From assembly GCF_027942865.1 (NCBI RefSeq), contig NC_134526.1:1317001-1381000 (forward strand): a stretch of 64,000 nt of DNA. Reading direction: 5' to 3'. Each line of letters starts with the position of its first letter. Position 1 is the first letter of the stretch. The translations under genes and the position numbers were made by a program. Below, piece by piece: positions 30,041 to 64,000 of this stretch. The notes under the pieces were generated by a model, which saw nothing but the letters and a program-made list of their open reading frames with translations, ran no database searches and was not told the DNA's origin. The DNA comes from Odontesthes bonariensis (Eukaryota > Chordata > Actinopteri > Atheriniformes > Atherinopsidae).

Positions 30041-30100
30041 GGGACTTTCTGCCTTTCACTCTCCTTTCACTCCTTTCCGTTTCCCGTCTGAAAGATAAAT
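30041..30100 (+). promoter_or_regulatory. Interferon core promoter: NF-kB-like, IRF-like cluster and TATA-like box
   Basis: GGGACTTTCT (30041-30050) is one base from GGGACTTTCC. CTTTCACTCTCCTTTCAC and CCTTTCCGTTTCCC (30053-30085) read on the minus strand as GGGAAACGGAAAGG and repeated GTGAAAGG, IRF-type elements. GATAAAT at 30094 could act as a TATA box, putting the start near 30125. Such IRF plus NF-kB clustering is characteristic of virus-inducible type I interferon promoters. Confidence 0.6.
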
Positions 30101-30151
30101 GGCTTCCCTCGGACCGGCAGCAGGTCACAAACTCAGCTCCTCACTGCCAAC

Positions 30152-30274
30152 ATGTTCAGCCACACCGGCCCGCTGCTCGTCCTCTGCGCCGTCCTGACCT
30201 CTGCGCTCTGCTGTGATTGGCTCACAGAGTACAGCGACCTGAGAAACAGCTCCGTCACTCTGGTGGAACTCATG
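30152..30274 (+). CDS. interferon coding exon 1
   Basis: Signal peptide and helix A, ending TLVELM; donor ATG|GTGAGT. Confidence 0.9.
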
Positions 30275-31271
30275 GTGAGTACAGCTGAGGCACGGGTCCT
30301 GGGGGAGGCTTCCAGGGTCCTGGGGAGGCTTCCAGGGTCCTGGGGGGGGGCTTCCAGGGTCCTGGAGAGGCTTCCAGGGTTCTATGGAGGCTTTCAGGGT
30401 CCTGGAGGAGGCTTCCAGGGTCCTGGGGAGGCTTCCATGGTCCTGGGGAGGCTTTCATGGTCCTGGGGGAGGCTTCCAGGGTCCTGGGGAGAGCTTTCAG
30501 GGTCCTGGAGGAGGCTTCCAGAGGTCCTATGGAGGCTTCCAGGGTTCTATGGAGGCTTCCAGGGGTCCTGGAGGAGGCTTCCAGGGTCCTGGGGAGGCTT
30601 CCATGGTCCTGGGGAGGCTTCCATGGTCCTGGGGGAGGCTTCCAGGGTTCTATGGAGGCTTCCAGGGGTCCTGGAGGAGGCTTCCAGGGTCCTGGGGAGG
30701 CTTCCATGGTCCTGGGGAGAGCTTTCAGGGTCCTGGAGGAGGCTTCCAGGGTTCTATGGAGGCTTCCAGGGGTCCTGGAGGAGGCTTCCAGGGTCCTGGG
30801 GAGAGCTTTCAGGGTCCTGGGGAGGCTTTCAGGTCCTGGAGGAGGCTTCCAGGGTCCTGGGGGGGGGGGCTTCCAGGGTCCTGGAGAGGCTTCCAGGGTT
30901 CTATGGAGGCTTTCAGGGTCCTGGAGGAGGCTTCCAGGGTCATGGGGAGGCTTCCATGGTCCTGGGGAGGCTTCCATGGTCCTGGGGGAGGCTTCCAGGG
31001 TCCTGGGGAGAGCTTTCAGGGTCCTGGAGGAGGCTTCCAGGGTTCTATGGAGGCTTCCAGGGGTCCTGGAGGAGGCTTCCAGGGTCCTGGGGAGAGCTTT
31101 CAGGGTCCTGGGGAGGCTTTCAGGTCCTGGGGAGTGGTGTCGGGTGGTGTCGGGTGGAGTGTAACCGAAGCGTCTCTTTCTGTTTCAGGGTGGTGCGTTC
31201 ACAGACCAGGAGAGTCCGAGTCCGGTTCCATTTCCATACAAGCTGTACGCACAAGTGGAGAAGAAAGGGGT

Positions 31272-31319
<48 letters not shown>

Positions 31320-33227: not shown

Positions 33228-33233
33228 AATAAA
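33228..33233 (+). terminator. Polyadenylation signal AATAAA of the interferon gene
   Basis: AATAAA lies 149 nt after the stop and is followed by TCTCATCTCTAGTTTGTGTT, a GT-rich downstream element. Confidence 0.8.
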
Positions 33234-35149
33234 GTTCAGATCTCATCTCTAGTTTGTGTTCTGTTGTTTCACCCCCGAGTCTGTCAGGGTTCTCTTTTAC
33301 TCGCCTTCAACATGTAAGAAGCTTAAAACCTTTGGCACGATCTTACCGCTGTCACGTGACCTTTGGAACGATCTTACCGCTGTCACGTGACCTTTGGAAC
33401 GATCTTACCGCTGTCACGTGACCTTTGGAACGATCTTACCGCTGTCACGTGACCTTTGGCACGCTCTTACAGCTGTCACGTGACCTTTGGCTCGCTCTTA
33501 CAGCTGTCACGTTACCTTTGGTACGATCTTACCGCTGTCACGTGACCTTTGGCTCGCTCTTACAGCTGTCACGTTACCTTTGGTACGATCTTACCGCTGT
33601 CACGTGACCTTTGGCACGATCTTACAGCTGTCACGTGACCTTTGGCACGCTCTTACAGCTGTCACGTGACCTTTGGCACGCTCTTACAGCTGTCACGTGA
33701 CCTTTGGCACGATCTTACAGCTGTCACGTGACCTTTGGCTCGCTCTTACAGCTGTCACGTGACCTTTGGCACGATCTTCCCGCTGTCACGTGACTTTTGG
33801 CACGATCTTCCCGCTGTCACGTGACCTTTGGCACGCTCTTACCGCTGGCACGTGACCTTTGGCACGCTCTTACCGCTGGCACGTGACCTTTGGCACGCTC
33901 TTACAGCTGTCACGTGACCATTGGCACGCTCTTACCGCTGTCACGTGACCTTTGGCACGCTCTTACCGCTGGCACGTGACCTTTGGCACGCTCTTACCGT
34001 TGTCACGTGACCTTTGGCACGCTCTTACCGCTGTCACGTGACCTTTGGCACGCTCTTACCGCTGTCACGTGACCTTTGGCACGCTCTTACCGCTGTCACG
34101 TGACCTTTGGCACGCTCTTACCGCTGTCACGTGACCTTTGGCAAGATCTTACCGTTGTCACGTGACCTTTGGCACGCTCTTACCGCTGTCACGTGACCTT
34201 TGGCACGCTCTTACAGCTGTCACGTGACCTTTGGCACGATCTTACCGCTGTCACGTGACTTTTGGCACGCTCTTACCGCTGTCACGTGACCTTTGGCACG
34301 CTCTTACCGCTGTCACGTGACCTTTGGCACGCTCTTACAGCTGTCACGTGACCTTGGGCACGCTCTTACAGCTGTCACGTGACCTTTGGCACGCTCTTAC
34401 CAATGTCACGTGACCTTTGGCACGATCTTACAGCTGTCACGTGACCTTTGGCACGATCTTACAGCTGTCACGTGACCTTTGGCACGATCTTACCGTTGTC
34501 ACGTGACCTTTGGCTCGCTCTTACAGCTGTCACGTGACCTTTGGCATGCTCTTACCGCTGTCACGTGACCTTTGGCACGCTCTTACCGCTGTCACGTGAC
34601 CTTTGGCACGCACTTACCGCTGGCACGTGACCTTTGGCACGATCTTACCGTTGTCACGTAACCTTTGGCACGCTCTTACCGCTGTCACGTGACCTTTGGC
34701 ACGCTCTTACCGCTGTCACGTGACCTTTGGCACGCTCTTACCGCTGTCACGTGACCTTGGGCACACTCTTACAGCTGTCACGTGACCTTTGGCACACTCT
34801 TACCAATGTCACGTGACCTTTGGCACGATCTTACAGCTGTCACGTGACCTTTGGCACGATCTTACCGTTGTCACGTGACCTTTGGCTCGCTCTTACAGCT
34901 GTCACGTGACCTTTGGCATGCTCTTACCGCTGTCACGTGACCTTTGGCACGCTCTTACCGCTGTCACGTGACCTTTGGCACGCTCTTACCGCTGTCACGT
35001 GACCTTTGGCACGCTCTTACCAATGTCACGTGACCTTTGGCACGATCTTACAGCTGTCACGTGACCTTTGGCACGATCTTACCGTTGTCACGTGACCTTT
35101 GGCACGCTCTTACCGCTGTCACGTGACGTTTGGCACGATCTTACCGCTG

Positions 35150-38100
35150 TCACGTGACCTTTGGCACGATCTTCCCGCTGTCACGTGACCTTTGGCACGA
35201 TCTTACAGCTGTCACGTGACTTTTGGCACGATCTTACCGCTGTCACGTGACTTTTGGCACGATCTTCCCGCTGTCACGTGACCTTTGGCACGCTCTTACC
35301 GCTGTCACGTGACCTTTGGCACGCACTTACCGCTGGCACGTGACCTTTGGCACGCTCTTACCGCTGTCACGTGACCTTTGGCACGCTCTTACCGTTGTCA
35401 CGTGACCTTTGGCACGCTCTTACCGCTGTCACGTGACCTTTGGCACGCTCTTACCGCTGTCACGTGACCTTTGGCACGCTCTTACCGCTGTCACGTGACC
35501 TTTGGCACGCTCTTACCGCTGTCACGTGACCTTTGGCAAGATCTTACCGTTGTCACGTGACCTTTGGCACGCTCTTACCGCTGTCACGTGACCTTTGGCA
35601 CGCTCTTACCGCTGTCACGTGACTTTTGGCACGATCTTCCCGCTGTCACGTGACCTTTGGCACGCTCTTACAGCTGTCACGTGACCTTTGGCACGATCTT
35701 ACCGCTGTCACGTGACTTTTGGCACGCTCTTACCGCTGTCACGTGACCTTTGGCACGCTCTTACCGCTGTCACGTGACCTTTGGCACGCTCTTACCGCTG
35801 TCACGTGACCTTGGGCACGCTCTTACAGCTGTCACGTGACCTTTGGCACGCTCTTACCAATGTCACGTGACCTTTGGCACGATCTTACAGCTGTCACGTG
35901 ACCTTTGGCACGATCTTACAGCTGTCACGTGACCTTTGGCACGATCTTACCGTTGTCACGTGACCTTTGGCTCGCTCTTACAGCTGTCACGTGACCTTTG
36001 GCATGCTCTTACCGCTGTCACGTGACCTTTGGCACGCTCTTACCGCTGTCACGTGACCTTTGGCACGCACTTACCGCTGGCACGTGACCTTTGGCACGAT
36101 CTTACCGTTGTCACGTAACCTTTGGCACGCTCTTACCGCTGTCACGTGACCTTTGGCACGCTCTTACCGCTGTCACGTGACCTTTGGCACGCTCTTACCG
36201 CTGTCACGTGACCTTGGGCACACTCTTACAGCTGTCACGTGACCTTTGGCACACTCTTACCAATGTCACGTGACCTTTGGCACGATCTTACAGCTGTCAC
36301 GTGACCTTTGGCACGATCTTACCGTTGTCACGTGACCTTTGGCTCGCTCTTACAGCTGTCACGTGACCTTTGGCATGCTCTTACCGCTGTCACGTGACCT
36401 TTGGCACGCTCTTACCGTTGTCACGTGACCTTTGGCACGCTCTTACCGCTGTCACGTGACGTTTGGCACGATCTTACCGCTGTCACGTGACCTTTGGCAC
36501 GATCTTACAGCTGTCACGTGACTTTTGGCACGATCTTCCCGCTGTCACGTGACCTTTGGCACGATCTTACAGCTGTCACGTGACTTTTGGCACGATCTTA
36601 CCGCTGTCACGTGACTTTTGGCACGATCTTCCCGCTGTCACGTGACCTTTGGCACGCTCTTACCGCTGTCACGTGACCTTTGGCACGCACTTACCGCTGG
36701 CACGTGACCTTTGGCACGATCTTACCGTTGTCACGTGACCTTTGGCACGCTCTTACCGTTGTCACGTGACCTTTGGCACGCTCTTACCGCTGTCACGTGA
36801 CCTTTGGCACGCTCTTACAGCTGTCACGTGACCTTTGGCACACTCTTACCAATGTCACGTGACCTTTGGCACGATCTTACAGCTGTCACGTGACCTTTGG
36901 CACGCTCTTACAGCTGTCACGTGACCTTTGGCACGATCTTACCGTTGTCACGTGACCTTTGGCTCGCTCTTACAGCTGTCACGTGACCTTTGGCTCGCTC
37001 TTACAGCTGTCACGTGACCTTTGGCACGATCTTACCGTTGTCACGTGACCTTTGGCACGCTCTTACAGCTGTCACGTGACCTTTGGCACGATCTTACCGT
37101 TGTCACGTGACCTTTGGCACGATCTTACCGCTGTCACGTGACCTTTGGCTCGCTCTTACAGCTGTCACGTGACCTTTGGCACGCTCTTACCGCTGGCACG
37201 TGACCTTTGGCACGCTCTTACCGTTGTCAAGTGACCTTTGGCACGCTCTTACCGCTGTCACGTGACCTTTGGCACGCTCTTACCGCTGTCACGTGACCTT
37301 TGGCACGCTCTTACCGCTGTCACGTGACCTTTGGCACGCTCTTACCGCTGTCACGTGACCTTTGGCAAGATCTTACCGTTGTCACGTGACCTTTGGCACG
37401 CTCTTACCGCTGTCACGTGACCTTTGGCACGTGACTTTTGGCACGATCTTCCCGCTGTCACGTGACCTTTGGCACGCTCTTACAGCTGTCACGTGACCTT
37501 TGGCACGATCTTACCGCTGTCACGTGACTTTTGGCACGCTCTTACCGCTGTCACGTGACCTTTGGCACGCTCTTACCGCTGTCACGTGACCTTTGGCACG
37601 CTCTTACAGCTGTCACGTGACCTTGGGCACGCTCTTACAGCTGTCACGTGACCTTTGGCACGCTCTTACCAATGTCACGTGACCTTTGGCACGATCTTAC
37701 AGCTGTCACGTGACCTTTGGCACGATCTTACAGCTGTCACGTGACCTTTGGCACGATCTTACCGTTGTCACGTGACCTTTGGCTCGCTCTTACAGCTGTC
37801 ACGTGACCTTTGGCATGCTCTTACCGCTGTCACGTGACCTTTGGCACGCTCTTACCGCTGTCACGTGACCTTTGGCACGCACTTACCGCTGGCACGTGAC
37901 CTTTGGCACGATCTTACCGTTGTCACGTAACCTTTGGCACGCTCTTACCGCTGTCACGTGACCTTTGGCACGCTCTTACCGCTGTCACGTGACCTTTGGC
38001 ACGCTCTTACAGCTGTCACGTGACCTTGGGCACACTCTTACAGCTGTCACGTGACCTTTGGCACACTCTTACCAATGTCACGTGAACTTTGGCACGATCT

Positions 38101-40480
38101 TACAGCTGTCACGTGACCTTTGGCACGATCTTACCGTTGTCACGTGACCTTTGGCTCGCTCTTACAGCTGTCACGTGACCTTTGTCATGCTCTTACCGCT
38201 GTCACGTGACCTTTGGCACGCTCTTACCGCTGTCACGTGACCTTTGGCACGCTCTTACCGCTGTCACGTGACCTTTGGCACGCTCTTACCAATGTCACGT
38301 GACCTTTGGCACGATCTTACAGCTGTCACGTGACCTTTGGCACGATCTTACCGTTGTCACGTGACCTTTGGCACGCTCTTACCGCTGTCACGTGACGTTT
38401 GGCACGATCTTACCGCTGTCACGTGACCTTTGGCACGATCTTACAGCTGTCACGTGACTTTTGGCACGATCTTCCCGCTGTCACGTGACCTTTGGCACGA
38501 TCTTACAGCTGTCACGTGACTTTTGGCACGATCTTACCGCTGTCACGTGACTTTTGGCACGATCTTCCCGCTGTCACGTGACCTTTGGCACGCTCTTACC
38601 GCTGTCACGTGACCTTTGGCACGCACTTACCGCTGGCACGTGACCTTTGGCACGCTCTTACCGCTGTCACGTGACCTTTGGCACGCTCTTACCGTTGTCA
38701 CGTGACCTTTGGCACGCTCTTACCGCTGTCACGTGACCTTTGGCACGCTCTTACCGCTGTCACGTGACCTTTGGCACGCTCTTACCGCTGTCACGTGACC
38801 TTTGGCACGCTCTTACCGCTGTCACGTGACCTTTGGCAAGATCTTACCGTTGTCACGTGACCTTTGGCACGCTCTTACCGCTGTCACGTGACCTTTGGCA
38901 CGCTCTTACCGCTGTCACGTGACTTTTGGCACGATCTTCCCGCTGTCACGTGACCTTTGGCACGCTCTTACAGCTGTCACGTGACCTTTGGCACGATCTT
39001 ACCGCTGTCACGTGACTTTTGGCACGCTCTTACCGCTGTCACGTGACCTTTGGCACGCTCTTACCGCTGTCACGTGACCTTTGGCACGCTCTTACCGCTG
39101 TCACGTGACCTTGGGCACGCTCTTACAGCTGTCACGTGACCTTTGGCACGCTCTTACCAATGTCACGTGACCTTTGGCACGATCTTACAGCTGTCACGTG
39201 ACCTTTGGCACGATCTTACAGCTGTCACGTGACCTTTGGCACGATCTTACCGTTGTCACGTGACCTTTGGCTCGCTCTTACAGCTGTCACGTGACCTTTG
39301 GCATGCTCTTACCGCTGTCACGTGACCTTTGGCACGCTCTTACCGCTGTCACGTGACCTTTGGCACGCACTTACCGCTGGCACGTGACCTTTGGCACGAT
39401 CTTACCGTTGTCACGTAACCTTTGGCACGCTCTTACCGCTGTCACGTGACCTTTGGCACGGTCTTACCGCTGTCACGTGACCTTTGGCACGCTCTTACCG
39501 CTGTCACGTGACCTTGGGCACACTCTTACAGCTGTCACGTGACCTTTGGCACACTCTTACCAATGTCACGTGACCTTTGGCACGATCTTACAGCTGTCAC
39601 GTGACCTTTGGCACGATCTTACCGTTGTCACGTGACCTTTGGCTCGCTCTTACAGCTGTCACGTGACCTTTGGCATGCTCTTACCGCTGTCACGTGACCT
39701 TTGGCACGCTCTTACCGTTGTCACGTGACCTTTGGCACGCTCTTACCGCTGTCACGTGACGTTTGGCACGATCTTACCGCTGTCACGTGACCTTTGGCAC
39801 GATCTTACAGCTGTCACGTGACTTTTGGCACGATCTTCCCGCTGTCACGTGACCTTTGGCACGATCTTACAGCTGTCACGTGACTTTCGGCACGATCTTA
39901 CCGCTGTCACGTGACTTTTGGTACGATCTTCCCGCTGTCACGTGACCTTTGGCACGCTCTTACCGCTGTCACGTGACCTTTGGCACGCACTTACCGCTGG
40001 CACGTGACCTTTGGCACGATCTTACCGTTGTCACGTGACCTTTGGCACGCTCTTACCGCTGTCACGTGACCTTTGGCACGCTCTTACCGCTGTCACGTGA
40101 CCTTTGGCACGCTCTTACAGCTGTCACGTGACCTTTGGCACACTCTTACCAATGTCACGTGACCTTTGGCACGATCTTACAGCTGTCACGTGACCTTTGG
40201 CACGCTCTTACAGCTGTCACGTGACCTTTGGCACGATCTTACCGTTGTCACGTGACCTTTGGCTCGCTCTTACAGCTGTCACGTGACCTTTGGCTCGCTC
40301 TTACAGCTGTCACGTGACCTTTGGCACGATCTTACCGTTGTCACGTGACCTTTGGCACGCTCTTACAGCTGTCACGTGACCTTTGGCACGATCTTACCGT
40401 TGTCACGTGACCTTTGGCACGATCTTACCGCTGTCACGTGACCTTTGGCTCGCTCTTACAGCTGTCACGTGACCTTTGGC
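35150..40480. repeat. 3300-bp higher-order repeat in the E-box satellite
   Basis: 35150-37180 and 38450-40480 match at an offset of exactly 3300 bp; for instance the CAAGATC variant recurs near 35538 and 38838 in identical context. 3300 equals 106 x 31 + 14, which is explained by the single 14-bp truncated unit near 37430 between the copies. Confidence 0.85.
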
Positions 40481-43400
40481 ACGATCTTACCATTGTCACG
40501 TGACCTTTGGCACGCTCTTACCGCTGTCACGTGACCTTTGGCACGCTCTTACCGCTGTCACGTGACCTTTGGCACGCTCTTACAGCTGTCACGTGACCTT
40601 TGGCACGCTCTTACCGCTGTCACGTGACCTTTGGCACGCTCTTACAGCTGTCACGTGACCTTTGGCACGCTCTTACCGCTGTCACGTGACCTTTGGCACG
40701 CTCTTACCAATGTCACGTGACCTTTGGCACGATCTTACAGCTGTCACGTGACCTTTGGCACGATCTTACCGCTGTCACGTGACCTTTTGCACGCTCTTAC
40801 CGCTTTCTCGTGACCTTTGGCTCGATCTTACAGCCGTCACGTGACCTTTGGCACGATCTTACCGCTGTCACGTGACCTTTGGCACGATCTTACCGCTGTC
40901 ACGTGACCTTTGGCACGATCTTACCGCTGTCACGTGACCTTTGGCACGATCTTACAGCTGTCACGTGACCTTTGGCACGATCTTACCGCTGTCACGTGAC
41001 CTTTGGCACGCTCTTACAGCTGTCTCGTGACCTTTGGCTCGATCTTACAGCCGTCACGTGACCTTTGGCACGATCTTACCGCTGTCACGTGACCTTTGGC
41101 ACGATCTTACCGCTGTCACGTGACCTTTGGCACGATCTTACCGCTGTCACGTGACCTTTGGCACGCTCTTACCGCTGTCACGTGACCTTTGGCACGATCT
41201 TACCACTGTCACGTGACCTTTGGCACGCTCTTACCGCTGTCACGTGACCTTTGGTACGATCTTACCGCTGTCAAGTGACCTTTGGCATGCTCTTACCGCT
41301 GTCACGTGACCTTTGGCACGATCTTACCGCTGTCACATGACCTTTGGCACGATCTTACCGCTGTCACGTGACCTTTGGCATGCTCTTACCGCTGTCACGT
41401 GACCTTTGGCATGCTCTTACCGCTGTCATGTGACCTGTGGCACGCTCTTACCGCTGTCACGTGACCTTTGGTACGATCTTACCGCTGTCACGTGACCTTT
41501 GGCACACTCGTACCGCTGTCACGTGACCTTTGGCACGATCTTACCGCTGTCACGTGACCTTTGGCACGATCTTACCGCTGTCACGTGACCTTTGGCGCGC
41601 TCTTACCGCTGTCACGTGACCTTTGGCACGCTCTTACCGCTGTCACGTGACCTTTGGCACGCTCTTACCGCTGTCACGTGACCTTTGGTACGATCTTACC
41701 GCATTCACGTGACCTTTGGCACGCTCTTACCGCTGTCACGTGACCTTTGGTACGATATTACCGCTGTCACGTGACCTTTGGCACGCTCTTACCGCTGTCA
41801 CGTGACCTTTGGCACGCTCTTACAGCTGTCACGTGACCTTTGGCACGCTCTTACCGCTGTCACGTGACCTTTGGCACGCTCTTACCGTTGTCACGTGACC
41901 TTTGGCACGCTCTTACCGCTGTCACGTGACCTTTGGCACGCTCTTACCGCTGTCACGTGACCTTTGGTACGATCTTACCGCATTCACGTGACCTTTGGCA
42001 CGCTCTTACCGCTGTCACGTGACCTTTGGTACGATCTTACCGCATTCACGTGACCTTTGGCACGCTCTTACCGCTGTCACGTGACCTTTGGCACGCTCTT
42101 ACCGCTGTCACGTGACCTTTGGCACGCTCTTACCGCTGTCACGTGACCTTTGGCACGCTCATACAGCTGTCACGTGACCTTTGGCACGATCTTACCGTTG
42201 TCACGTGACCTTTGGCTCGCTCTTACAGCTGTCACGTGACCTTTGGCTCGCTCTTACAGCTGTCACGTGACCTTTGGCACGATCTTACCGTTGTCACGTG
42301 ACCTTTGGCACGCTCTTACAGCTGTCACGTGACCTTTGGCACGATCTTACCGTTGTCACGTGACCTTTGGCACGATCTTACCGCTGTCACGTGACCTTTG
42401 GCTCGCTCTTACAGCTGTCACGTGACCTTTGGCACGATCTTACCATTGTCACGTGACCTTTGGCACGCTCTTACCGCTGTCACGTGACCTTTGGCACGCT
42501 CTTACCGCTGTCACGTGACCTTTGGCACGCTCTTACAGCTGTCACGTGACCTTTGGCACGCTCTTACCGCTGTCACGTGACCTTTGGCACGCTCTTACAG
42601 CTGTCACGTGACCTTTGGCACGCTCTTACCGCTGTCACGTGACCTTTGGCACGCTCTTACCAATGTCACGTGACCTTTGGCACGATCTTACAGCTGTCAC
42701 GTGACCTTTGGCACGATCTTACCGCTGTCACGTGACCTTTTGCACGCTCTTACCGCTTTCTCGTGACCTTTGGCTCGATCTTACCGCTGTCTCGTGACCT
42801 TTGGCTCGATCTTACAGCCGTCACGTGACCTTTGGCACGATCTTACCGCTGTCACGTGACCTTTGGCACGCTCTTACCGCTGTCACGTGACCTTTGGCAC
42901 GCTCTTACCGCTGTCACGTGACCTTTGGTACGATCTTACCGCTGTCACATGACCTTTGGCACGATCTTACCACTGTCACGTGACCTTTGGCACGCTCTTA
43001 CCGCTGTCAAGTGACCTTTGGCATGCTCTTACCGCTGTCACGTGACCTTTGGCACGATCTTACCGCTGTCACATGACCTTTGGCACGATCTTACCGCTGT
43101 CACGTGACCTTTGGCATGCTCTTACCGCTGTCACGTGACCTTTGGCATGCTCTTACCGCTGTCATGTGACCTGTGGCACGCTCTTACCGCTGTCACGTGA
43201 CCTTTGGTACGATCTTGCCGCTGTCACGTGACCTTTGGCACACTCGTACCGCTGTCACGTGACCTTTGGCACGATCTTACCGCTGTCACGTGACCTTTGG
43301 CACGATCTTACCGCTGTCACGTGACCTTTGGCGCGCTCTTACCGCTGTCACGTGACCTTTGGCACGCTCTTACCGCTGTCACGTGACCTTTGGCACGCTC

Positions 43401-46400
43401 TTACCGCTGTCACGTGACCTTTGGTACGATCTTACCGCATTCACGTGACCTTTGGCACGCTCTTACCGCTGTCACGTGACCTTTGGTACGATATTACCGC
43501 TGTCACGTGACCTTTGGCACGCTCTTACCGCTGTCACGTGACCTTTGGCACGCTCTTACAGCTGTCACGTGACCTTTGGCACGCTCTTACCGCTGTCACG
43601 TGACCTTTGGCACGCTCTTACCGTTGTCACGTGACCTTTGGCACGCTCTTACCGCTGTCACGTGACCTTTGGCACGCTCTTACCGCTGTCACGTGACCTT
43701 TGGCACGCTCTTACCGCTGTCACGTGACCTTTGGCACGATCTTACCGTTGTCACGTGACCTTTGGCACGATCTCACCGCTGTCACGTGACCTTTGGCACG
43801 CTCTTACCGCTGTCACGTGACCTTTGGCTCGATCTTACCGCTGTCTCATGACCTTTGGCTCGATCTTACCGCTGTCACGTGACCTTTGGCACGATCTTAC
43901 CGCTGTCACGTGACCTTTGGCACGATTTTACCGCTGACTTGTGACCTTTGGCTCGATCTTACAGCCGTCACGTGACCTTTGGCACGATCTTACCGCTGTC
44001 ACGTGACCTTTGGTACGATCTTACCGTTGTCACGTGACCTTTGGCACGATCTTACCGCTGTCACGTGACCTTTGGCAAGCTCTTACCGCTGTCACGTGAC
44101 CTTTGGTACGATCTTACAGCTGTCACATGACCTTTGGCACGATCTTACAGCTGTCACGTGACCTTTGGCACGCTCTTACAGCTGTCACGTGACCTTTGGC
44201 ACGATCTTACCGTTGTCACGTGACCTTTGGCTCGCTCTTACAACTGTCACGTGACCTTTGGCTCGCTCTTACAGCTGTCACGTGACCTTTGGCACGATCT
44301 TACCGTTGTCACGTGACCTTTGGCACGCTCTTACAGCTGTCACGTGACCTTTGGCACGATCTTACCGTTGTCACGTGACCTTTGGCACGATCTTACCGCT
44401 GTCACGTGACCTTTGGCTCGCTCTTACAGCTGTCACGTGACCTTTGGCACGATCTTACCATTGTCACGTGACCTTTGGCACGCTCTTACCGCTGTCACGT
44501 GACCTTTGGCACGCTCTTACCGCTGTCACGTGACCTTTGGCACGCTCTTACAGCTGTCACGTGACCTTTGGCACGCTCTTACCGCTGTCACGTGACCTTT
44601 GGCACGCTCTTACCGCTGTCACGTGACCTTTGGCACGCTCTTACCAATGTCACGTGACCTTTGGCACGATCTTACAGCTGTCACGTGACCTTTGGCACGA
44701 TCTTACCGCTGTCACGTGACCTTTGGCACGCTCTTACCGCTGTCTCGTGACCTTTGGCTCGATCTTACCGCTGTCTCGTGACCTTTGGCACGATCTTACA
44801 GCCGTCACGTGACCTTTGGCACGATCTTACCACTGTCACGTGACCTTTGGCACGCTCTTACCGCTGTCACGTGACCTTTGGTACGATCTTACCGCTGTCA
44901 AGTGACCTTTGGCATGCTCTTACCGCTGTCACGTGACCTTTGGCACGATCTTACCGCTGTCACATGACCTTTGGCACGATCTTACCGCTGTCACGTGACC
45001 TTTGGCAAGCTCTTACCGCTGTCACGTGACCTTTGGCATGCTCTTACCGCTGTCATGTGACCTGTGGCACGCTCTTACCGCTGTCACGTGACCTTTGGTA
45101 CGATCTTACCGCTGTCACGTGACCTTTGGCACACTCGTACCGCTGTCACGTGACCTTTGGCACGATCTTACCGCTGTCACGTGACCTTTGGCACGATCTT
45201 ACCGCTGTCACGTGACCTTTGGCGCGCTCTTACCGCTGTCACGTGACCTTTGGCACGCTCTTACCGCTGTCACGTGACCTTTGGCACGCTCTTACCGCTG
45301 TCACGTGACCTTTGGTACGATCTTACCGCATTCACGTGACCTTTGGCACGCTCTTACCGCTGTCACGTGACCTTTGGTACGATATTACCGCTGTCACGTG
45401 ACCTTTGGCACGCTCTTACCGCTGTCACGTGACCTTTGACACGCTCTTACAGCTGTCACGTGACCTTTGGCACGCCCTTACCGCTGTCACGTGACCTTTG
45501 GCACGCTCTTACCGTTGTCACGTGACCTTTGGCACGCTCTTACCGCTGTCACGTGACCTTTGGCACGCTCTTACCGCTGTCACGTGACCTTTGGCACGCT
45601 CTTACCGCTGTCACGTGACCTTTGGTACGATCTTACCGCATTCACGTGACCTTTGGCACGCTCTTACCGCTGTCACGTGACCTTTGGCACGCTCTTACCG
45701 CTGTCACGTGACCTTTGGCACGCTCTTACAGCTGTCACGTGACCTTTGGCACGCTCTTTCCGCTGTCACGTGACCTTTGGCACGCTCTTACCGTTGTCAC
45801 GTGACCTTTGGCACGCTCTTACCAATGTCACGTGACCTTTGGCACGATCTTACAGCTGTCACGTGACCTTTGGCACGATCTTACCGTTGTCACGTGACCT
45901 TTGGCACGATCTCACCGCTGTCACGTGACCTTTGGCACGCTCTTACCGCTGTCTCGTGACCTTTGGCTCGATCTTACCGCTGTCTCGTGACCTTTGGCTC
46001 GATCTTACCGCTGTCACGTGACCTTTGGCACGATCTTACCGCTGTCACGTGACCTTTGGCACGATTTTACCGCTGACTTGTGACCTTTGGCTCGATCTTA
46101 CAGCCGTCACGTGACCTTTGGCACGATCTTACCGCTGTCACGTGACCTTTGGCACGATCTTACCGTTGTCACGTGACCTTTGGCACGATCTTACCGCTGT
46201 CACATGACCTTTGGCACGATCTTACAGCTGTCACGTGACCTTTGGTACGATCTTACCGCTGTCACATGACCTTTGGCACGATCTTACAGCTGTCACGTGA
46301 CCTTTGGCACGCTCTTACAGCTGTCACGTGACCTTTGGCACGATCTTACCGTTGTCACGTGACCTTTGGCTCGCTCTTACAGCTGTCACGTGACCTTTGG

Positions 46401-52400: not shown

Positions 52401-53356
52401 CACGTGACCTTTGGCACGCTCTTACCGCTGTCACGTGACCTTTGGCACGCTCTTACAGCTGTCACGTGACCTTTGGCACGCTCTTACAGCTGTCACGTGA
52501 CCTTTGGCACGCTCTTACCGCTGTCACGTGACCTTTGGCACGCTCTTACAGCTGTCACGTGACCTTTGGCACGCTCTTACCGCTGTCACGTGACCTTTGG
52601 CACGCTCTTACCGCTGTCACGTGACCTTTGGTACGATCTTACCGCTGTCACGTGACCTTTGGCACGCTCTTACCGCTGTCACGTGACCTTTGGCATGCTC
52701 TTACCGCTGTCACGTGACCTTTGGCATGCTCTTACCGCTGTCATGTGACCTGTGGCAAAGCTCTTACCGCTGTCACGTGACCTTTGGTACGATCTTACCG
52801 CTGTCACGTGACCTTTGGCACACTCGTACCGCTGTCACGTGACCTTTGGCACGATCTTACCGCTGTCACGTGACCTTTGGCGCGATCTTACCGCTGTCAC
52901 GTGACCTTTGGCGCGCTCTTACCGCTGTCACGTGACCTTTGGCACGCTCTTACCGCTGTCACGTGACCTTTGGCACGCTCTTACCGCTGTCACGTGACCT
53001 TTGGTACGATCTTACCGCATTCACGTGACCTTTGGCACGCTCTTACCGCTGTCACGTGACCTTTGGTACGATATTACCGCTGTCACGTGACCTTTGGCAC
53101 GCTCTTACCGCTGTCACGTGACCTTTGGCACGCTCTTACAGCTGTCACGTGACCTTTGGCACGCTCTTACCGCTGTCACGTGACCTTTGGCACGCTCTTA
53201 CCGTTGTCACGTGACCTTTGGCACGCTCTTACCGCTGTCACGTGACCTTTGGCACGCTCTTACCGCTGTCACGTGACCTTTGGCACGCTCTTACCGCTGT
53301 CACGTGACCTTTGGTACGATCTTACCGCATTCACGTGACCTTTGGCACGCTCTTAC

Positions 53357-56300
53357 CGCTCTCACGTGACCTTTGGTACGATCTTACCGCATTCACGTGA
53401 CCTTTGGCACGCTCTTACCGCTGTCACGTGACCTTTGGCACGCTCTTACCGCTGTCACGTGACCTTTGGCACGCTCTTACAGCTGTCACGTGACCTTTGG
53501 CACGCTCTTACCGCTGTCACGTGACCTTTGGCACGCTCTTACCGTTGTCACGTGACCTTTGACACGCTCTTACCAATGTCACGTGACCTTTGGCACGATC
53601 TTACAGCTGTCACGTGACCTTTGGCACGATCTTACCGTTGTCACGTGACCTTTGGCACGATCTCACCGCTGTCACGTGACCTTTGGCACGCTCTTACCGC
53701 TGTCACGTGACCTTTGGCTCGATCTTACCGCTGTCTCGTGACCTTTGGCTCGATCTTACCGCTGTCACGTGACCTTTGGCACGATCTTACCGCTGTCACG
53801 TGACCTTTGGCACGATTTTACCGCTGACTTGTGACCTTTGGCTCGATCTTACAGCCGTCACGTGACCTTTGGCACGATCTTACCGCTGTCACGTGACCTT
53901 TGGCACGATCTTACCGTTGTCACGTGACCTTTGGCACGATCTTACCGCTGTCACGTGACCTTTGGCACGCTCTTACCGCTGTCACGTGACCTTTGGTACG
54001 ATCTTACAGCTGTCACATGACCTTTGGCACGATCTTACAGCTGTCACGTGACCTTTGGCACGCTCTTACAGCTGTCACGTGACCTTTGGCACGATCTTAC
54101 CGTTGTCACGTGACCTTTGGCTCGCTCTTACAACTGTCACGTGACCTTTGGCTCGCTCTTACAGCTGTCACGTGACCTTTGGCACGATCTTACCGTTGTC
54201 ACGTGACCTTTGGCACGCTCTTACAGCTGTCACGTGACCTTTGGCACGATCTTACCGTTGTCACGTGACCTTTGGCACGATCTTACCGCTGTCACGTGAC
54301 CTTTGGCTCGCTCTTACAGCTGTCACGTGACCTTTGGCACGATCTTACCATTGTCACGTGACCTTTGGCACGCTCTTACCGCTGTCACGTGACCTTTGGC
54401 ACGCTCTTACCGCTGTCACGTGACCTTTGGCACGCTCTTACAGCTGTCACGTGACCTTTGGCACGCTCTTACCGCTGTCACGTGACCTTTGGCACGCTCT
54501 TACAGCTGTCACGTGACCTTTGGCACGCTCTTACCGCTGTCACGTGACCTTTGGCACGCTCTTACCGCTGTCACGTGACCTTTGGCACGCTCTTACCAAT
54601 GTCACGTGACCTTTGGCACGATCTTACAGCTGTCACGTGACCTTTGGCACGATCTTACCGCTGTCACGTGACCTTTGGCACGCTCTTACCGCTGTCTCGT
54701 GACCTTTGGCTCGATCTTACCGCTGTCTCGTGACCTTTGGCACGATCTTACAGCCGTCACGTGACCTTTGGCACGATCTTACCACTGTCACGTGACCTTT
54801 GGCACGCTCTTACCGCTGTCACGTGACCTTTGGTACGATCTTACCGCTGTCAAGTGACCTTTGGCATGCTCTTACCGCTGTCACGTGACCTTTGGCACGA
54901 TCTTACCGCTGTCACATGACCTTTGGCACGATCTTACCGCTGTCACGTGACCTTTGGCAAGCTCTTACCGCTGTCACGTGACCTTTGGCATGCTCTTACC
55001 GCTGTCATGTGACCTGTGGCACGCTCTTACCGCTGTCACGTGACCTTTGGTACGATCTTACCGCTGTCACGTGACCTTTGGCACACTCGTACCGCTGTCA
55101 CGTGACCTTTGGCACGATCTTACCGCTGTCACGTGACCTTTGGCGCGATCTTACCGCTGTCACGTGACCTTTGGCGCGCTCTTACCGCTGTCACGTGACC
55201 TTTGGCACGCTCTTACCGCTGTCACGTGACCTTTGGCACGCTCTTACCGCTGTCACGTGACCTTTGGTACGATCTTACCGCATTCACGTGACCTTTGGCA
55301 CGCTCTTACCGCTGTCACGTGACCTTTGGTACGATATTACCGCTGTCACGTGACCTTTGGCACGCTCTTACCGCTGTCACGTGACCTTTGACACGCTCTT
55401 ACAGCTGTCACGTGACCTTTGGCACGCTCTTACCGCTGTCACGTGACCTTTGGCACGCTCTTACCGTTGTCACGTGACCTTTGGCACGCTCTTACCGCTG
55501 TCACGTGACCTTTGGCACGCTCTTACCGCTGTCACGTGACCTTTGGCACGCTCTTACCGCTGTCACGTGACCTTTGGTACGATCTTACCGCATTCACGTG
55601 ACCTTTGGCACGCTCTTACCGCTGTCACGTGACCTTTGGCACGCTCTTACCGCTGTCACGTGACCTTTGGCACGCTCTTACAGCTTTCACGTGACCTTTG
55701 GCACGCTCTTACCGCTGTCACGTGACCTTTGGCACGCTCTTACCGTTGTCACGTGACCTTTGGCACGCTCTTACCAATGTCACGTGACCTTTGGCACGAT
55801 CTTACAGCTGTCACGTGACCTTTGGCACGATCTTACCGTTGTCACGTGACCTTTGGCACGATCTCACCGCTGTCACGTGACCTTTGGCACGCTCTTACCG
55901 CTGTCTCGTGACCTTTGGCTCGATCTTACCGCTGTCTCGTGACCTTTGGCTCGATCTTACCGCTGTCACGTGACCTTTGGCACGATCTTACCGCTGTCAC
56001 GTGACCTTTGGCACGATTTTACCGCTGACTTGTGACCTTTGGCTCGATCTTACAGCCGTCACGTGACCTTTGGCACGATCTTACCGCTGTCACGTGACCT
56101 TTGGCACGATCTTACCGTTGTCACGTGACCTTTGGCACGATCTTACCGCTGTCACGTGACCTTTGGCACGCTCTTACCGCTGTCACGTGACCTTTGGTAC
56201 GATCTTACCGCTGTCACATGACCTTTGGCACGATCTTACAGCTGTCACGTGACCTTTGGCACGCTCTTACAGCTGTCACGTGACCTTTGGCACGATCTTA

Positions 56301-59300
56301 CCGTTGTCACGTGACCTTTGGCTCGCTCTTACAGCTGTCACGTGACCTTTGGCTCGCTCTTACAGCTGTCACGTGACCTTTGGCTCGCTCTTACAGCTGT
56401 CACGTGACCTTTGGCACGATCTTACCGTTGTCACGTGATCTTTGGCACGCTCTTACAGCTGTCACGTGACCTTTGGCACGATCTTACCGTTGTCACGTGA
56501 CCTTTGGCACGATCTTACCGCTGTCACGTGACCTTTGGCTCGCTCTTACAGCTGTCACGTGACCTTTGGCACGATCTTACCATTGTCACGTGACCTTTGG
56601 CACGCTCTTACCATTGTCACGTGACCTTTGGCATGCTCTTACCGCTCTCACGTGACCTTTGGCACGCTCTTACAGCTGTCACGTGACCTTTGGCACGCTC
56701 TTACCGCTGTCACGTGACCTTTGGCACGCTCTTACAGCTGTCACGTGACCTTTGGCACGCTCTTACCGCTGTCACGTGACCTTTGGCACACTCTTACCGC
56801 TGTCACGTGACCTTTGGCACGCTCTTACCAATGTCACGTGACCTTTGGCACGATCTTACAGCTGTCACGTGACCTTTGGCACGATCTTACCGCTGTCACG
56901 TGACCTTTGGCACGCTCTTACCGCTGTCTCGTGACCTTTGGCTCGATCTTACCGCTGTCTCGTGACCTTTGGCACGCTCTTACCGCTGTCACGTGACCTT
57001 TGGCACGATCTTACCGCTGTCACGTGACCTTTGGCACGCTCTTACCGCTGTCACGTGACCTTTGGCACGCTCTTACCGCTGTCACGTGACCTTTGGCACG
57101 CTCTTACCGCTGTCACGTGACCTTTGGTACGATCTTACAGCTGTCACGTGACCTTTGGCACGATCTTACCGCTGTCACGTGACCTTTGGCACGCTCTTAC
57201 CGCTGTCTCGTGACCTTTGGCTCGATCTTACCGCTGTCTCGTGACCTTTGGCACGCTCTTACCGCTGTCACGTGACCTTTGGCACGCTCTTACCGCTGTC
57301 ACGTGACCTTTGGCACGCTCTTACCGCTGTCACGTGACCTTTGGCACGCTCTTACCGCTGTCACGTGACCTTTGGCACGCTCTTACCGCTGTCACGTGAC
57401 CTTTGGTACGATCTTACCGCTGTCACATGACCTTTGGCACGATCTTACCACTGTCACGTGACCTTTGGCACGCTCTTACCGCTGTCACGTGACCTTTGGT
57501 ACGATCTTACCGCTGTCAAGTGACCTTTGGCATGCTCTTACCGCTGTCACGTGACCTTTGGCACGATCTTACCGCTGTCACGTGACCTTTGGCATGCTCT
57601 TACCGCTGTCACGTGACCTTTGGCATGCTCTTACCGCTGTCATGTGACCTGTGGCACGCTCTTACCGCTGTCACGTGACCTTTGGTACGATCTTACCGCT
57701 GTCACGTGACCTTTGGCACACTCGTACCGCTCTCACGTGACCTTTGGTACGATCTTACCGCATTCACGTGACCTTTGGCACGCTCTTACCGCTGTCACGT
57801 GACCTTTGGCACGCTCTTACCGCTGTCACGTGACCTTTGGCACGCTCTTACAGCTGTCACGTGACCTTTGGCACGCTCTTACCGCTGTCACGTGACCTTT
57901 GGCACGCTCTTACCGTTGTCACGTGACCTTTGACACGCTCTTACCAATGTCACGTGACCTTTGGCACGATCTTACAGCTGTCACGTGACCTTTGGCACGA
58001 TCTTACCGTTGTCACGTGACCTTTGGCACGATCTCACCGCTGTCACGTGACCTTTGGCACGCTCTTACCGCTGTCACGTGACCTTTGGCTCGATCTTACC
58101 GCTGTCTCGTGACCTTTGGCTCGATCTTACCGCTGTCACGTGACCTTTGGCACGATCTTACCGCTGTCACGTGACCTTTGGCACGATTTTACCGCTGACT
58201 TGTGACCTTTGGCTCGATCTTACAGCCGTCACGTGACCTTTGGCACGATCTTACCGCTGTCACGTGACCTTTGGCACGATCTTACCGTTGTCACGTGACC
58301 TTTGGCACGATCTTACCGCTGTCACGTGACCTTTGGCACGCTCTTACCGCTGTCACGTGACCTTTGGTACGATCTTACAGCTGTCACATGACCTTTGGCA
58401 CGATCTTACAGCTGTCACGTGACCTTTGGCACGCTCTTACAGCTGTCACGTGACCTTTGGCACGATCTTACCGTTGTCACGTGACCTTTGGCTCGCTCTT
58501 ACAACTGTCACGTGACCTTTGGCTCGCTCTTACAGCTGTCACGTGACCTTTGGCACGATCTTACCGTTGTCACGTGACCTTTGGCACGCTCTTACAGCTG
58601 TCACGTGACCTTTGGCACGATCTTACCGTTGTCACGTGACCTTTGGCACGATCTTACCGCTGTCACGTGACCTTTGGCTCGCTCTTACAGCTGTCACGTG
58701 ACCTTTGGCACGATCTTACCATTGTCACGTGACCTTTGGCACGCTCTTACCGCTGTCACGTGACCTTTGGCACGCTCTTACCGCTGTCACGTGACCTTTG
58801 GCACGCTCTTACAGCTGTCACGTGACCTTTGGCACGCTCTTACCGCTGTCACGTGACCTTTGGCACGCTCTTACAGCTGTCACGTGACCTTTGGCACGCT
58901 CTTACCGCTGTCACGTGACCTTTGGCACGCTCTTACCGCTGTCACGTGACCTTTGGCACGCTCTTACCAATGTCACGTGACCTTTGGCACGATCTTACAG
59001 CTGTCACGTGACCTTTGGCACGATCTTACCGCTGTCACGTGACCTTTGGCACGCTCTTACCGCTGTCTCGTGACCTTTGGCTCGATCTTACCGCTGTCTC
59101 GTGACCTTTGGCACGATCTTACAGCCGTCACGTGACCTTTGGCACGATCTTACCACTGTCACGTGACCTTTGGCACGCTCTTACCGCTGTCACGTGACCT
59201 TTGGTACGATCTTACCGCTGTCAAGTGACCTTTGGCATGCTCTTACCGCTGTCACGTGACCTTTGGCACGATCTTACCGCTGTCACATGACCTTTGGCAC

Positions 59301-62098
59301 GATCTTACCGCTGTCACGTGACCTTTGGCAAGCTCTTACCGCTGTCACGTGACCTTTGGCATGCTCTTACCGCTGTCATGTGACCTGTGGCACGCTCTTA
59401 CCGCTGTCACGTGACCTTTGGTACGATCTTACCGCTGTCACGTGACCTTTGGCACACTCGTACCGCTGTCACGTGACCTTTGGCACGATCTTACCGCTGT
59501 CACGTGACCTTTGGCGCGATCTTACCGCTGTCACGTGACCTTTGGCGCGCTCTTACCGCTGTCACGTGACCTTTGGCACGCTCTTACCGCTGTCACGTGA
59601 CCTTTGGCACGCTCTTACCGCTGTCACGTGACCTTTGGTACGATCTTACCGCATTCACGTGACCTTTGGCACGCTCTTACCGCTGTCACGTGACCTTTGG
59701 TACGATATTACCGCTGTCACGTGACCTTTGGCACGCTCTTACCGCTGTCACGTGACCTTTGACACGCTCTTACAGCTGTCACGTGACCTTTGGCACGCTC
59801 TTACCGCTGTCACGTGACCTTTGGCACGCTCTTACCGTTGTCACGTGACCTTTGGCACGCTCTTACCGCTGTCACGTGACCTTTGGCACGCTCTTACCGC
59901 TGTCACGTGACCTTTGGCACGCTCTTACCGCTGTCACGTGACCTTTGGTACGATCTTACCGCATTCACGTGACCTTTGGCACGCTCTTACCGCTGTCACG
60001 TGACCTTTGGCACGCTCTTACCGCTGTCACGTGACCTTTGGCACGCTCTTACAGCTTTCACGTGACCTTTGGCACGCTCTTACCGCTGTCACGTGACCTT
60101 TGGCACGCTCTTACCGTTGTCACGTGACCTTTGGCACGCTCTTACCAATGTCACGTGACCTTTGGCACGATCTTACAGCTGTCACGTGACCTTTGGCACG
60201 ATCTTACCGTTGTCACGTGACCTTTGGCACGATCTCACCGCTGTCACGTGACCTTTGGCACGCTCTTACCGCTGTCTCGTGACCTTTGGCTCGATCTTAC
60301 CGCTGTCTCGTGACCTTTGGCTCGATCTTACCGCTGTCACGTGACCTTTGGCACGATCTTACCGCTGTCACGTGACCTTTGGCACGATTTTACCGCTGAC
60401 TTGTGACCTTTGGCTCGATCTTACAGCCGTCACGTGACCTTTGGCACGATCTTACCGCTGTCACGTGACCTTTGGCACGATCTTACCGTTGTCACGTGAC
60501 CTTTGGCACGATCTTACCGCTGTCACGTGACCTTTGGCACGCTCTTACCGCTGTCACGTGACCTTTGGTACGATCTTACCGCTGTCACATGACCTTTGGC
60601 ACGATCTTACAGCTGTCACGTGACCTTTGGCACGCTCTTACAGCTGTCACGTGACCTTTGGCACGATCTTACCGTTGTCACGTGACCTTTGGCTCGCTCT
60701 TACAGCTGTCACGTGACCTTTGGCTCGCTCTTACAGCTGTCACGTGACCTTTGGCTCGCTCTTACAGCTGTCACGTGACCTTTGGCACGATCTTACCGTT
60801 GTCACGTGATCTTTGGCACGCTCTTACAGCTGTCACGTGACCTTTGGCACGATCTTACCGTTGTCACGTGACCTTTGGCACGATCTTACCGCTGTCACGT
60901 GACCTTTGGCTCGCTCTTACAGCTGTCACGTGACCTTTGGCACGATCTTACCATTGTCACGTGACCTTTGGCACGCTCTTACCATTGTCACGTGACCTTT
61001 GGCATGCTCTTACCGCTCTCACGTGACCTTTGGCACGCTCTTACAGCTGTCACGTGACCTTTGGCACGCTCTTACCGCTGTCACGTGACCTTTGGCACGC
61101 TCTTACAGCTGTCACGTGACCTTTGGCACGCTCTTACCGCTGTCACGTGACCTTTGGCACACTCTTACCGCTGTCACGTGACCTTTGGCACGCTCTTACC
61201 AATGTCACGTGACCTTTGGCACGATCTTACAGCTGTCACGTGACCTTTGGCACGATCTTACCGCTGTCACGTGACCTTTGGCACGCTCTTACCGCTGTCT
61301 CGTGACCTTTGGCTCGATCTTACCGCTGTCTCGTGACCTTTGGCACGCTCTTACCGCTGTCACGTGACCTTTGGCACGATCTTACCGCTGTCACGTGACC
61401 TTTGGCACGCTCTTACCGCTGTCACGTGACCTTTGGCACGCTCTTACCGCTGTCACGTGACCTTTGGCACGCTCTTACCGCTGTCACGTGACCTTTGGTA
61501 CGATCTTACAGCTGTCACGTGACCTTTGGCACGATCTTACCGCTGTCACGTGACCTTTGGCACGCTCTTACCGCTGTCTCGTGACCTTTGGCTCGATCTT
61601 ACCGCTGTCTCGTGACCTTTGGCACGCTCTTACCGCTGTCACGTGACCTTTGGCACGCTCTTACCGCTGTCACGTGACCTTTGGCACGCTCTTACCGCTG
61701 TCACGTGACCTTTGGCACGCTCTTACCGCTGTCACGTGACCTTTGGCACGCTCTTACCGCTGTCACGTGACCTTTGGTACGATCTTACCGCTGTCACATG
61801 ACCTTTGGCACGATCTTACCACTGTCACGTGACCTTTGGCACGCTCTTACCGCTGTCACGTGACCTTTGGTACGATCTTACCGCTGTCAAGTGACCTTTG
61901 GCATGCTCTTACCGCTGTCACGTGACCTTTGGCACGATCTTACCGCTGTCACGTGACCTTTGGCATGCTCTTACCGCTGTCACGTGACCTTTGGCATGCT
62001 CTTACCGCTGTCATGTGACCTGTGGCACGCTCTTACCGCTGTCACGTGACCTTTGGTACGATCTTACCGCTGTCACGTGACCTTTGGCACACTCGTAC
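53357..62098. repeat. Tandem 4371-bp (141-unit) duplication in the E-box satellite
   Basis: Rare variants recur 4371 bp apart: TTTGACACG at 53561 and 57932, GCTGTCATGT at 55001 and 59372 and at 57636 and 62007, and the CTCTCACGTG unit at about 53359 and 57730. The copies, about 53357-57727 and 57728-62098, are adjacent and look almost identical. Confidence 0.9.
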
Positions 62099-64000
62099 CG
62101 CTGTCACGTGACCTTTGGCACGATCTCACCGCTGTCACGTGACCTTTGGCACGATCTTACTGCTGTCACGTGACCTTTGGCGCGCTCTTACCGCTGTCAC
62201 GTGACCTTTGGCACGCTCTTACCGCTGTCACGTGACCTTTGGCACGCTCTTACCGCTGTCACGTGACCTTTGGTACGATCTTACCGCATTCACGTGACCT
62301 TTGGCACGCTCTTACCGCTGTCACGTGACCTTTGGTACGATATTACCGCTGTCACGTGACCTTTGGCACGCTCTTACCGCTGTCACGTGACCTTTGCCAC
62401 GCTCTTACAGCTGTCACGTGACCTTTGGCACGCTCTTACCGTTGTCACGTGACCTTTGGCACGCTCTTACCGCTGTCACGTGACTTTTGGCACGCTCTTA
62501 CCGCTGTCACGTGACCTTTGGCACGCTCTTACCGCTGTCACGTGACCTTTGGTACGATCTTACCGCTGTCACGTGACCTTTGGCACGCTCTTACCGCTGT
62601 CACGTGACCTTTGGCACGCTCTTACCGCTGTCACGTGACCTTTGGTACGATCTTACCGCTGTCACGTGACCTTTGGCACGATCTTACCACTGTCACGTGA
62701 CCTTTGGCACGCTCTTACCGCTGTCACGTGACCTTTGGTACGATCTTACCGCTGTCAAGTGACCTTTGGCATGCTCTTACCGCTGTCACGTGACCTTTGG
62801 CACGATCTTACCGCTGTCACGTGACCTTTGGCATGCTCTTACCGCTGTCACGTGACCTTTGGCATGCTCTTACCGCTGTCATGTGACCTGTGGCACGCTC
62901 TTACCGCTGTCACGTGACCTTTGGTACGATCTTACCGCTGTCACGTGACCTTTGGCACACTCGTACCGCTGTCACGTGACCTTTGGCACGATCTCACCGC
63001 TGTCACGTGACCTTTGGCACGATCTTACCGCTGTCACGTGACCTTTGGCGCGCTCTTACCGCTGTCACGTGACCTTTGGCACGCTCTTACCGCTGTCACG
63101 TGACCTTTGGCACGCTCTTACCGCTGTCACGTGACCTTTGGTACGATCTTACCGCATTCACGTGACCTTTGGCACGCTCTTACCGCTGTCACGTGACCTT
63201 TGGTACGATATTACCGCTGTCACGTGACCTTTGGCACGCTCTTACCGCTGTCACGTGACCTTTGGCACGCTCTTACAGCTGTCACGTGACCTTTGGCACG
63301 CTCTTACCGTTGTCACGTGACCTTTGGCACGCTCTTACCGCTGTCACGTGACTTTTGGCACGCTCTTACCGCTGTCACGTGACCTTTGGCACGCTCTTAC
63401 CGCTGTCACGTGACCTTTGGTACGATCTTACCGCATTCACGTGACCTTTGGCACGCTCTTACCGCTGTCACGTGACCTTTGGCACGCTCTTACCGCTGTC
63501 ACGTGACCTTTGGCACGCTCTTACAGCTGTCACGTGACCTTTGGCACGCTCTTACCGCTGTCACGTGACCTTTGGCACGCTCTTACCGTTGTCACGTGAC
63601 CTTTGGCACGCTCTTACCAATGTCACGTGACCTTTGGCACGATCTTACCGCTGTCACGTGACCTTTGGCACGCTCTTACCGCTGTCACGTGACCTTTGGC
63701 ACGCTCTTACCGCTGTCACGTGACCTTTGGCGCGCTCTTACCGCTGTCACGTGACCTGTGGCACGCTCTTACCGCTGTCACGTGACCTTTGGCACGCTCT
63801 TACCGCTGTCACGTGACCTTTGGTACGATCTTACCGCTGTCACGTGACCTTTGGCACGATCTTACCGCTGTCACGTGACCTTTGGTACGATCTTACCGCT
63901 GTCACGTGACCTTTGGCACACTCTTACCGCTGTCACGTGACCTTTGGCACGATATTACCGCTGTCACGTGACCTTTGGCACGATCTTACCGCTGTCACGT

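Follow-up and report, generated by a model that had tools for sequence, protein, structure and literature searches.

The window, i.e., the whole stretch of 64,000 nucleotides that was analysed (C26:1,317,001-1,381,000), is part of the 34.0-Mb contig C26 of the Odontesthes bonariensis genome (945 Mb in 187 contigs). It contains nr1d1, an interferon gene and a long 31-bp tandem array, which ends in the sequence directly following the window (L035), ahead of an actinoporin-like open frame (Table 1). The DNA-binding exon of nr1d1 gave NR1D1 as its best PDB match (1e-24), and the last ligand-domain exon, whose frame ends at 25,188, matched Rev-erbA-alpha/NR1D1 (PDB, 2.8e-22); a Pfam scan of the first exon (17,360-17,725) returned no family. 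These matches and the frame end confirm the statement of the initial annotation that the nr1d1 stop lies 8.1 kb before the array. The interferon gene reported there was also identified: two translated stretches, manually combined into one query, matched Pfam family PF00143 (1.2e-9) as well as interferons in the PDB (best 3.5e-6). The stop codon of this gene (33,077-33,079) is followed by AATAAA at 33,228, which precedes the array by approximately 90 bp. For the actinoporin-like gene, a possible poly(A) signal was found at L035:459. The array had been described as lying next to a clock gene, which holds insofar as nr1d1 is 8.1 kb away, but its nearest genes are the interferon gene (before) and the actinoporin-like gene (after, convergent). 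It thus occupies the gap between two apparent 3' ends, with no promoter adjoining.

Table 1. Coordinates of features at the locus (window positions, or positions in L035 where indicated).
Feature	Position	Strand	Basis
nr1d1 (Rev-erb alpha), coding exons	17,360-25,188	+	zf-C4 and ligand-binding domain exons by searches
nr1d1, first exon	17,360-17,725	+	recognised by eye alone
Interferon gene	30,092-33,079	+	exons traced in part; last exon by eye
31-bp tandem array	33,320-64,000, continuing to 64,210 (L035:1-210)	+	unit counts, TRF
Left junction of the array, truncated first unit	33,325-33,345	+	local alignments begin at 33,325
Irregular step in the array, 14 bp	37,412-37,425	+	
Irregular step in the array, 63 bp	52,709-52,771	+	
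141-unit block (4,371 bp), tandem duplicate without difference	53,361-62,102 (53,361-57,731 and 57,732-62,102)	+	
Actinoporin-like open frame	L035:666-1214	-	Anemone_cytotox PF06369, 8.3e-11

The consensus unit of the array is GTCACGTGACCTTTGGCACGCTCTTACCGCT (31 bp). As assembled, the array comprises 996 units, each sharing at least 22 of 31 letters with the consensus, across the window and the next 10 kb, and its last 210 bp, at the start of L035, bring it to C26:1,381,210; TRF, run on the window only, reported period 31 at 33,328-64,000. With 91 distinct sequences making up all 996 units, arranged head to tail, it is a satellite/minisatellite, long and homogenised, of near-identical units. 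Its "about a thousand perfect E-boxes" describes a real array and a real motif, but the number is slightly high: the 10-bp palindrome GTCACGTGAC is kept in 856 and CACGTG in 907 of the 996 units. The part lying in the window carries 851 GTCACGTGAC and 901 CACGTG, compared with 8 CACGTG in the remaining 33 kb, and the distance between successive CACGTG in the window is exactly 31 in 824 of 900 cases.

The 31-bp unit in a dispersed inverted-repeat element

A genome-wide search for the 31-mer (at most 3 mismatches) yielded 1,001 forward and 39 reverse matches, and a search for exact copies of a 30-letter form yielded 380 forward and 16 reverse matches, 375 of which are inside the window array; the other 21 are on C2 (4), C6 (1), C23 (1) and C25 (15). 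The idea of a widespread satellite was rejected, since 984 of the 1,040 near-matches sit in the one array. The counter-case named by the initial annotation itself, the same satellite in other parts of the genome and unconnected to this locus, was half borne out: the sequence is dispersed, but nearly all of its near-matches are concentrated here.

The places on C2, C25, C6, C17 and C23 that hold the 31-mer have a flank sequence in common. The C17 copy (L049) spans 768 bp and is bounded by terminal inverted repeats, approximately 211 bp long and 91% identical, and the 31-mer is located directly inside its left arm. A search with the C17 element found at least 89 matching pieces on 14 contigs (a lower bound, with 20 of 21 candidates scored; the listed pieces do not include the window array). 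The terminal 24-mer of the element (at most 2 mismatches) has 20 matches in the genome and its reversed control has none. TA adjoins 14 of 19 element ends, as read by eye, and no longer target-site duplication was resolved. The terminal inverted repeats and the dispersed copies on several chromosomes are features of non-autonomous MITE/foldback DNA transposons. The 31-mer forms the subterminal repeat of this element, which is of low copy number and MITE/foldback-like.

At 16 places outside the window array the units (at least 21 of 31 letters) form a copy-number series: 0 (two places), 1 (seven; at one of them, L058, each strand carries a weak match), 2 (one), 3 (four; at L049 the opposite strand adds a further weak match), 32 (C2) and 36 (C25). 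Exact palindromes are lacking at four of these places, and are present once at nine, twice at one, 31 times at C2 and 35 times at C25. The C2 count of 32 skips units shifted by indels: 27 of the counted units are exact, yet the stretch has 31 exact palindromes. At C2, 27 of 32 units retain CACGTG, and at C25 36 of 36 do, compared with 907 of 996 in the window array.

Unit position 11 is C in 966 of the 996 units of the window array, and T in the consensus units of C25 and C2 and in 9 of 9 units printed for C6, C17 and C23. On the minus strand this C gives rise to AGGTCA, a half-site for nuclear receptors that overlaps the E-box (TGACCT occurs 948 times in the array). Rev-erb needs an A/T-rich 5' extension on its half-site, and such an extension is absent beside the AGGTCA of the array.

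Six frames in two longer end-to-end intervals (L068 and L069) were scanned against Pfam for a transposase, and none appeared in these frames; five had no family and the sixth was a reverse transcriptase. The latter is a 958-aa frame (RVT_1, 2.5e-37) at positions 1193-4069 of L069 (C24), between element ends 5 kb apart. On C25 (L047, positions 1-2949) a 20-bp satellite lies beside the 31-mer array; by eye it resembles the terminal sequence of the element, so that one copy may have yielded two satellites.

Remnants of the element are also found at the window locus. To the right of the array, 118 bp (L035:300-417) are 95% identical to the inner arm of the element in reverse orientation, and an overlapping piece of 109 bp (L035:254-362) matches its centre and opposite inner arm at 90% identity. 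On the left, the truncated first unit of the array resembles the first truncated unit of the copies on C17 (L049), C14 (L059) and C27 (L062). Comparison of the flanks with the element gave no match to its outer arms on either side of the array. What remains is therefore inner arm and centre rather than a complete element with both ends, and the array is called element-derived, not an element copy; with both outer arms missing, its tie to the element rests on the inner-arm homology and on the unit itself.

Repeat setting, homogenisation and proposed origin of the array

The surroundings of the array are dense in tandem repeats. Such repeats (period of at least 7) make up 59% of the 174 kb at C26:1,307,001-1,481,000, where 31 arrays of at least 600 bp were found, five with 31-bp and four with 21-bp units. 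The five 31-bp unit sequences are not related: no pair is closer than shuffled sequences (92 to 495 of 500 shuffles attain the observed identity). In 4-kb control stretches from C1, C13 and the middle of C26, tandem repeats occupy 0, 1.7 and 0%, and in the 5 kb directly before the 174-kb region they occupy 38%. Seven further stretches, two of them chosen for holding 31-mer arrays, gave 0, 2.3, 3.3, 9.2, 29, 38 and 59%; because the 4-kb controls are few and short, and a C29 stretch (L052) reaches 38%, the 174-kb region may not be exceptional.

Among the other repeats, a 33-bp satellite at window positions 5-8510 extends over 8.8 kb in total and begins before the window, at C26:1,316,711. The unit lengths of the arrays appear weakly phased at approximately 10.2-10.4 bp, near the helical pitch (Rayleigh p 0.02 at 10.4, uncorrected, for 23 of the 31 arrays, shorter units being left out).

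The E-box array is homogenised. Local block lags of 47, 59, 48 and 56 units were detected in its first part, and towards its end a block of 141 units is followed by its identical duplicate (Table 1). These lags and the duplication fit repeated unequal exchange, with a last event that is either very recent or an effect of assembly.

The conservation of the palindrome was compared with that of the rest of the unit. In each of the three arrays the palindrome has the lower raw mean divergence (on C26 1.6 vs. 6.0%, on C25 0.3 vs. 5.0% and on C2 5.0 vs. 10.4%), and on C26 the gap comes mostly from common variants at unit positions 17, 18, 21, 28 and 30. When each distinct unit was counted once and ten-base windows were taken round the circular unit, 8 of 31 windows (C26), 10 of 31 (C25) and 12 of 31 (C2), the palindrome itself included, were conserved at least as well as the palindrome. 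The window array has 27 private changes; the palindrome accounts for 7 of them, where 8.7 would be expected, and the E-box for 2, where 5.2 would be expected. There is thus no clear sign of special constraint on the palindrome; mild constraint is possible and could give both its lower raw divergence and the small number of private changes in the E-box.

We consider the array to be most probably a transposon-born satellite, produced by neutral growth of an element-internal repeat in a minisatellite-rich region. The following course of events may be proposed: (i) a small inverted-repeat (MITE/foldback-like) DNA element carries GTCACGTGAC subterminally, some of its copies having the 31-bp segment two or three times; (ii) one copy would have landed where the interferon and actinoporin-like genes leave a short gap between their 3' ends; (iii) slippage and recurrent unequal exchange, the latter being the presumed mechanism, would there have multiplied the 31-bp segment to about 1,000 units; and (iv) both outer arms of the element would have been lost. 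The great length of the array may be due to the local tandem-repeat-rich region, in which many unrelated motifs expanded, and the palindrome may originally have served as a recognition site for the transposase of the element. We infer that the growth was neutral and ran from few to many units, and the age of the array is likewise deduced. An origin of the E-boxes at the clock locus was rejected, as the palindrome is already present in low-copy forms of the element on other chromosomes; the E-boxes would have been inherited from the element and not assembled for nr1d1. Since the repeat derives from an element present on other chromosomes, copying errors, not a role in the clock, most likely account for its growth.

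The array is thereby a new and very large example of a satellite that grew out of a repeat inside a small inverted-repeat transposon, and a single genome displays the series of the transposon-internal repeat from one to about a thousand copies with the source element still present. The claim that no satellite of this type had been described was too strong: satellites arising from MITE-internal repeats are known (PMC4079207, PMC9659126, PMC12628747), as is a CACGTG-bearing minisatellite in human TERT (PMC2915984). The nearest precedent found is Tetris/TIR-220 of Drosophila virilis, a non-autonomous inverted-repeat (foldback) element with tandem repeats within its terminal inverted repeats (PMC4079207). 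There, too, copies with few units coexist with long arrays (up to 66 copies), the local environment is thought to favour growth, and a transposase-binding role of the repeat is considered possible (PMC4079207). Compared by description, Tetris differs in having 220-bp units in beta-heterochromatin and target duplications of 8-10 bp, whereas here 996 copies of a 31-bp E-box palindrome unit are intergenic and TA adjoins 14 of 19 element ends.

In Xstir and miDNA4 of Xenopus (PMC9659126, PMC12628747) the monomer also lies within a MITE, single or in tandem depending on the copy, and the end state is arrays without the ends of the element, as at the window locus; the element and unit are different, and the available text of both papers contains no mention of E-boxes that we found. 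The human VNTR2-1st minisatellite likewise has CACGTG in many of its repeats, but it is a VNTR of the TERT gene, with no transposon origin stated in the accessible part of PMC2915984, whereas the present array is intergenic and approximately 31 kb long. A transposable element also supplies E-boxes in the RSINE1 circadian enhancers of the mouse (PMC8240256). In that case the copies are dispersed, the E-boxes matured after insertion and CLOCK/BMAL1 binding was detected by ChIP, whereas here ready-made E-boxes, with other spacing, are in tandem and known from the sequence. Our literature search, with most subscription journals outside its scope, found nothing on CACGTG E-box satellite DNA or on decoy/titration by repeats.

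Alternative readings of the array

Silencing of the array as a CpG-dense heterochromatic or methylated block, which may spread onto the interferon gene, is possible but doubtful, and would be compatible with a transposon-born origin. Long tandem arrays are commonly silenced, and this one contains 86 CpG per kb across 31 kb. However, CpG decay in it is weak: per distinct unit, transitions affect 4.8% of C/G in CpG vs. 3.5% of other C/G, compared with 1.9 vs. 0% at C25 and 11.8 vs. 3.7% at C2, a measure that is indecisive if the array is young.

The array might also bind USF, TFE or MYC-type factors in bulk, as a sink that depletes their free pool or gathers them into a single nuclear focus; this is in our opinion very improbable and is unsupported. 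USF and TFE-type factors prefer the full 10-mer GTCACGTGAC, of which the genome has 4,868 exact sites (reversed control, 1,364), and 856 of these (17.6%) are in the array. In the genome as a whole, GTCACGTGAC outnumbers its reversed control by a factor of 3.6, or of approximately 2.9 with the array left out. The 31-bp spacing, close to three helical turns, would place the sites on one face, and the CpG observed/expected ratio of the array (1.18) and the low number of private changes in the E-box also speak for a sink. However, the share of the array in plain CACGTG is only about 0.7% (907 of approximately 124,000, a figure scaled up from the 21 counted in 159.8 kb of other sequence, most of it from the 174-kb region); the comparison makes a sink conceivable mainly for factors with a strong preference for the full 10-mer. 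The palindrome is moreover not specially conserved per distinct unit, and each E-box contains a CpG open to methylation.

Methylation weakens the binding of many E-box factors. PMC4935894 gives a mixed picture: methylation of the central CpG has a negligible effect on the affinity of BMAL1-CLOCK in vitro, while bound E-boxes near promoters are hypomethylated at the first cytosine in cells. That the array acts in vivo as a methylation-gated, length-variable bHLH sink or focus tuning its neighbours nr1d1 and the interferon gene is highly improbable. Through its growth at one place, a palindrome of transposon origin holds nearly a fifth of the exact GTCACGTGAC (TFE/USF-type) sites of the genome; with such a share in 31 kb, titration by repeats would be directly testable if the length of the array differs between individuals.

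It is also very unlikely that the length is a product of assembly, i.e., that the array is in truth far shorter, with the identical 141-unit block being a contig piece that was duplicated. Such an error would explain the perfect 4,371-bp tandem duplication, but unit variants and block lags change along the array, which at either end passes into different sequence of a 34-Mb contig.

The least probable reading is that of a clock-linked regulatory block, in which the array would be a rhythmic enhancer or silencer of nr1d1 (and of the interferon gene): the proximity of the nr1d1 end, the RSINE1 E-boxes that became circadian enhancers in the mouse (PMC8240256) and the CACGTG of the human TERT minisatellite (PMC2915984) speak for it, but the interferon gene intervenes, the array is enclosed by the 3' ends of two convergent genes, and its E-boxes are separated by 25 nt (8 nt at the single 14-bp step) rather than by the 6-7 nt optimal for a CLOCK:BMAL1 tandem (PMC8240256). 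The functional tie to the clock gene suggested by the initial annotation is unsupported, as the palindrome belongs to a dispersed low-copy element, was expanded at C2 and C25 too and is not specially conserved per distinct unit, and neighbouring arrays of other sequence expanded as well. Finally, nr1d1 may have E-boxes of its own: three CACGTG spaced by 11 bp (15,500, 15,511 and 15,522, within 15,500-15,527) and another at 15,692 lie approximately 1.8 kb upstream of the first exon recognised by eye.
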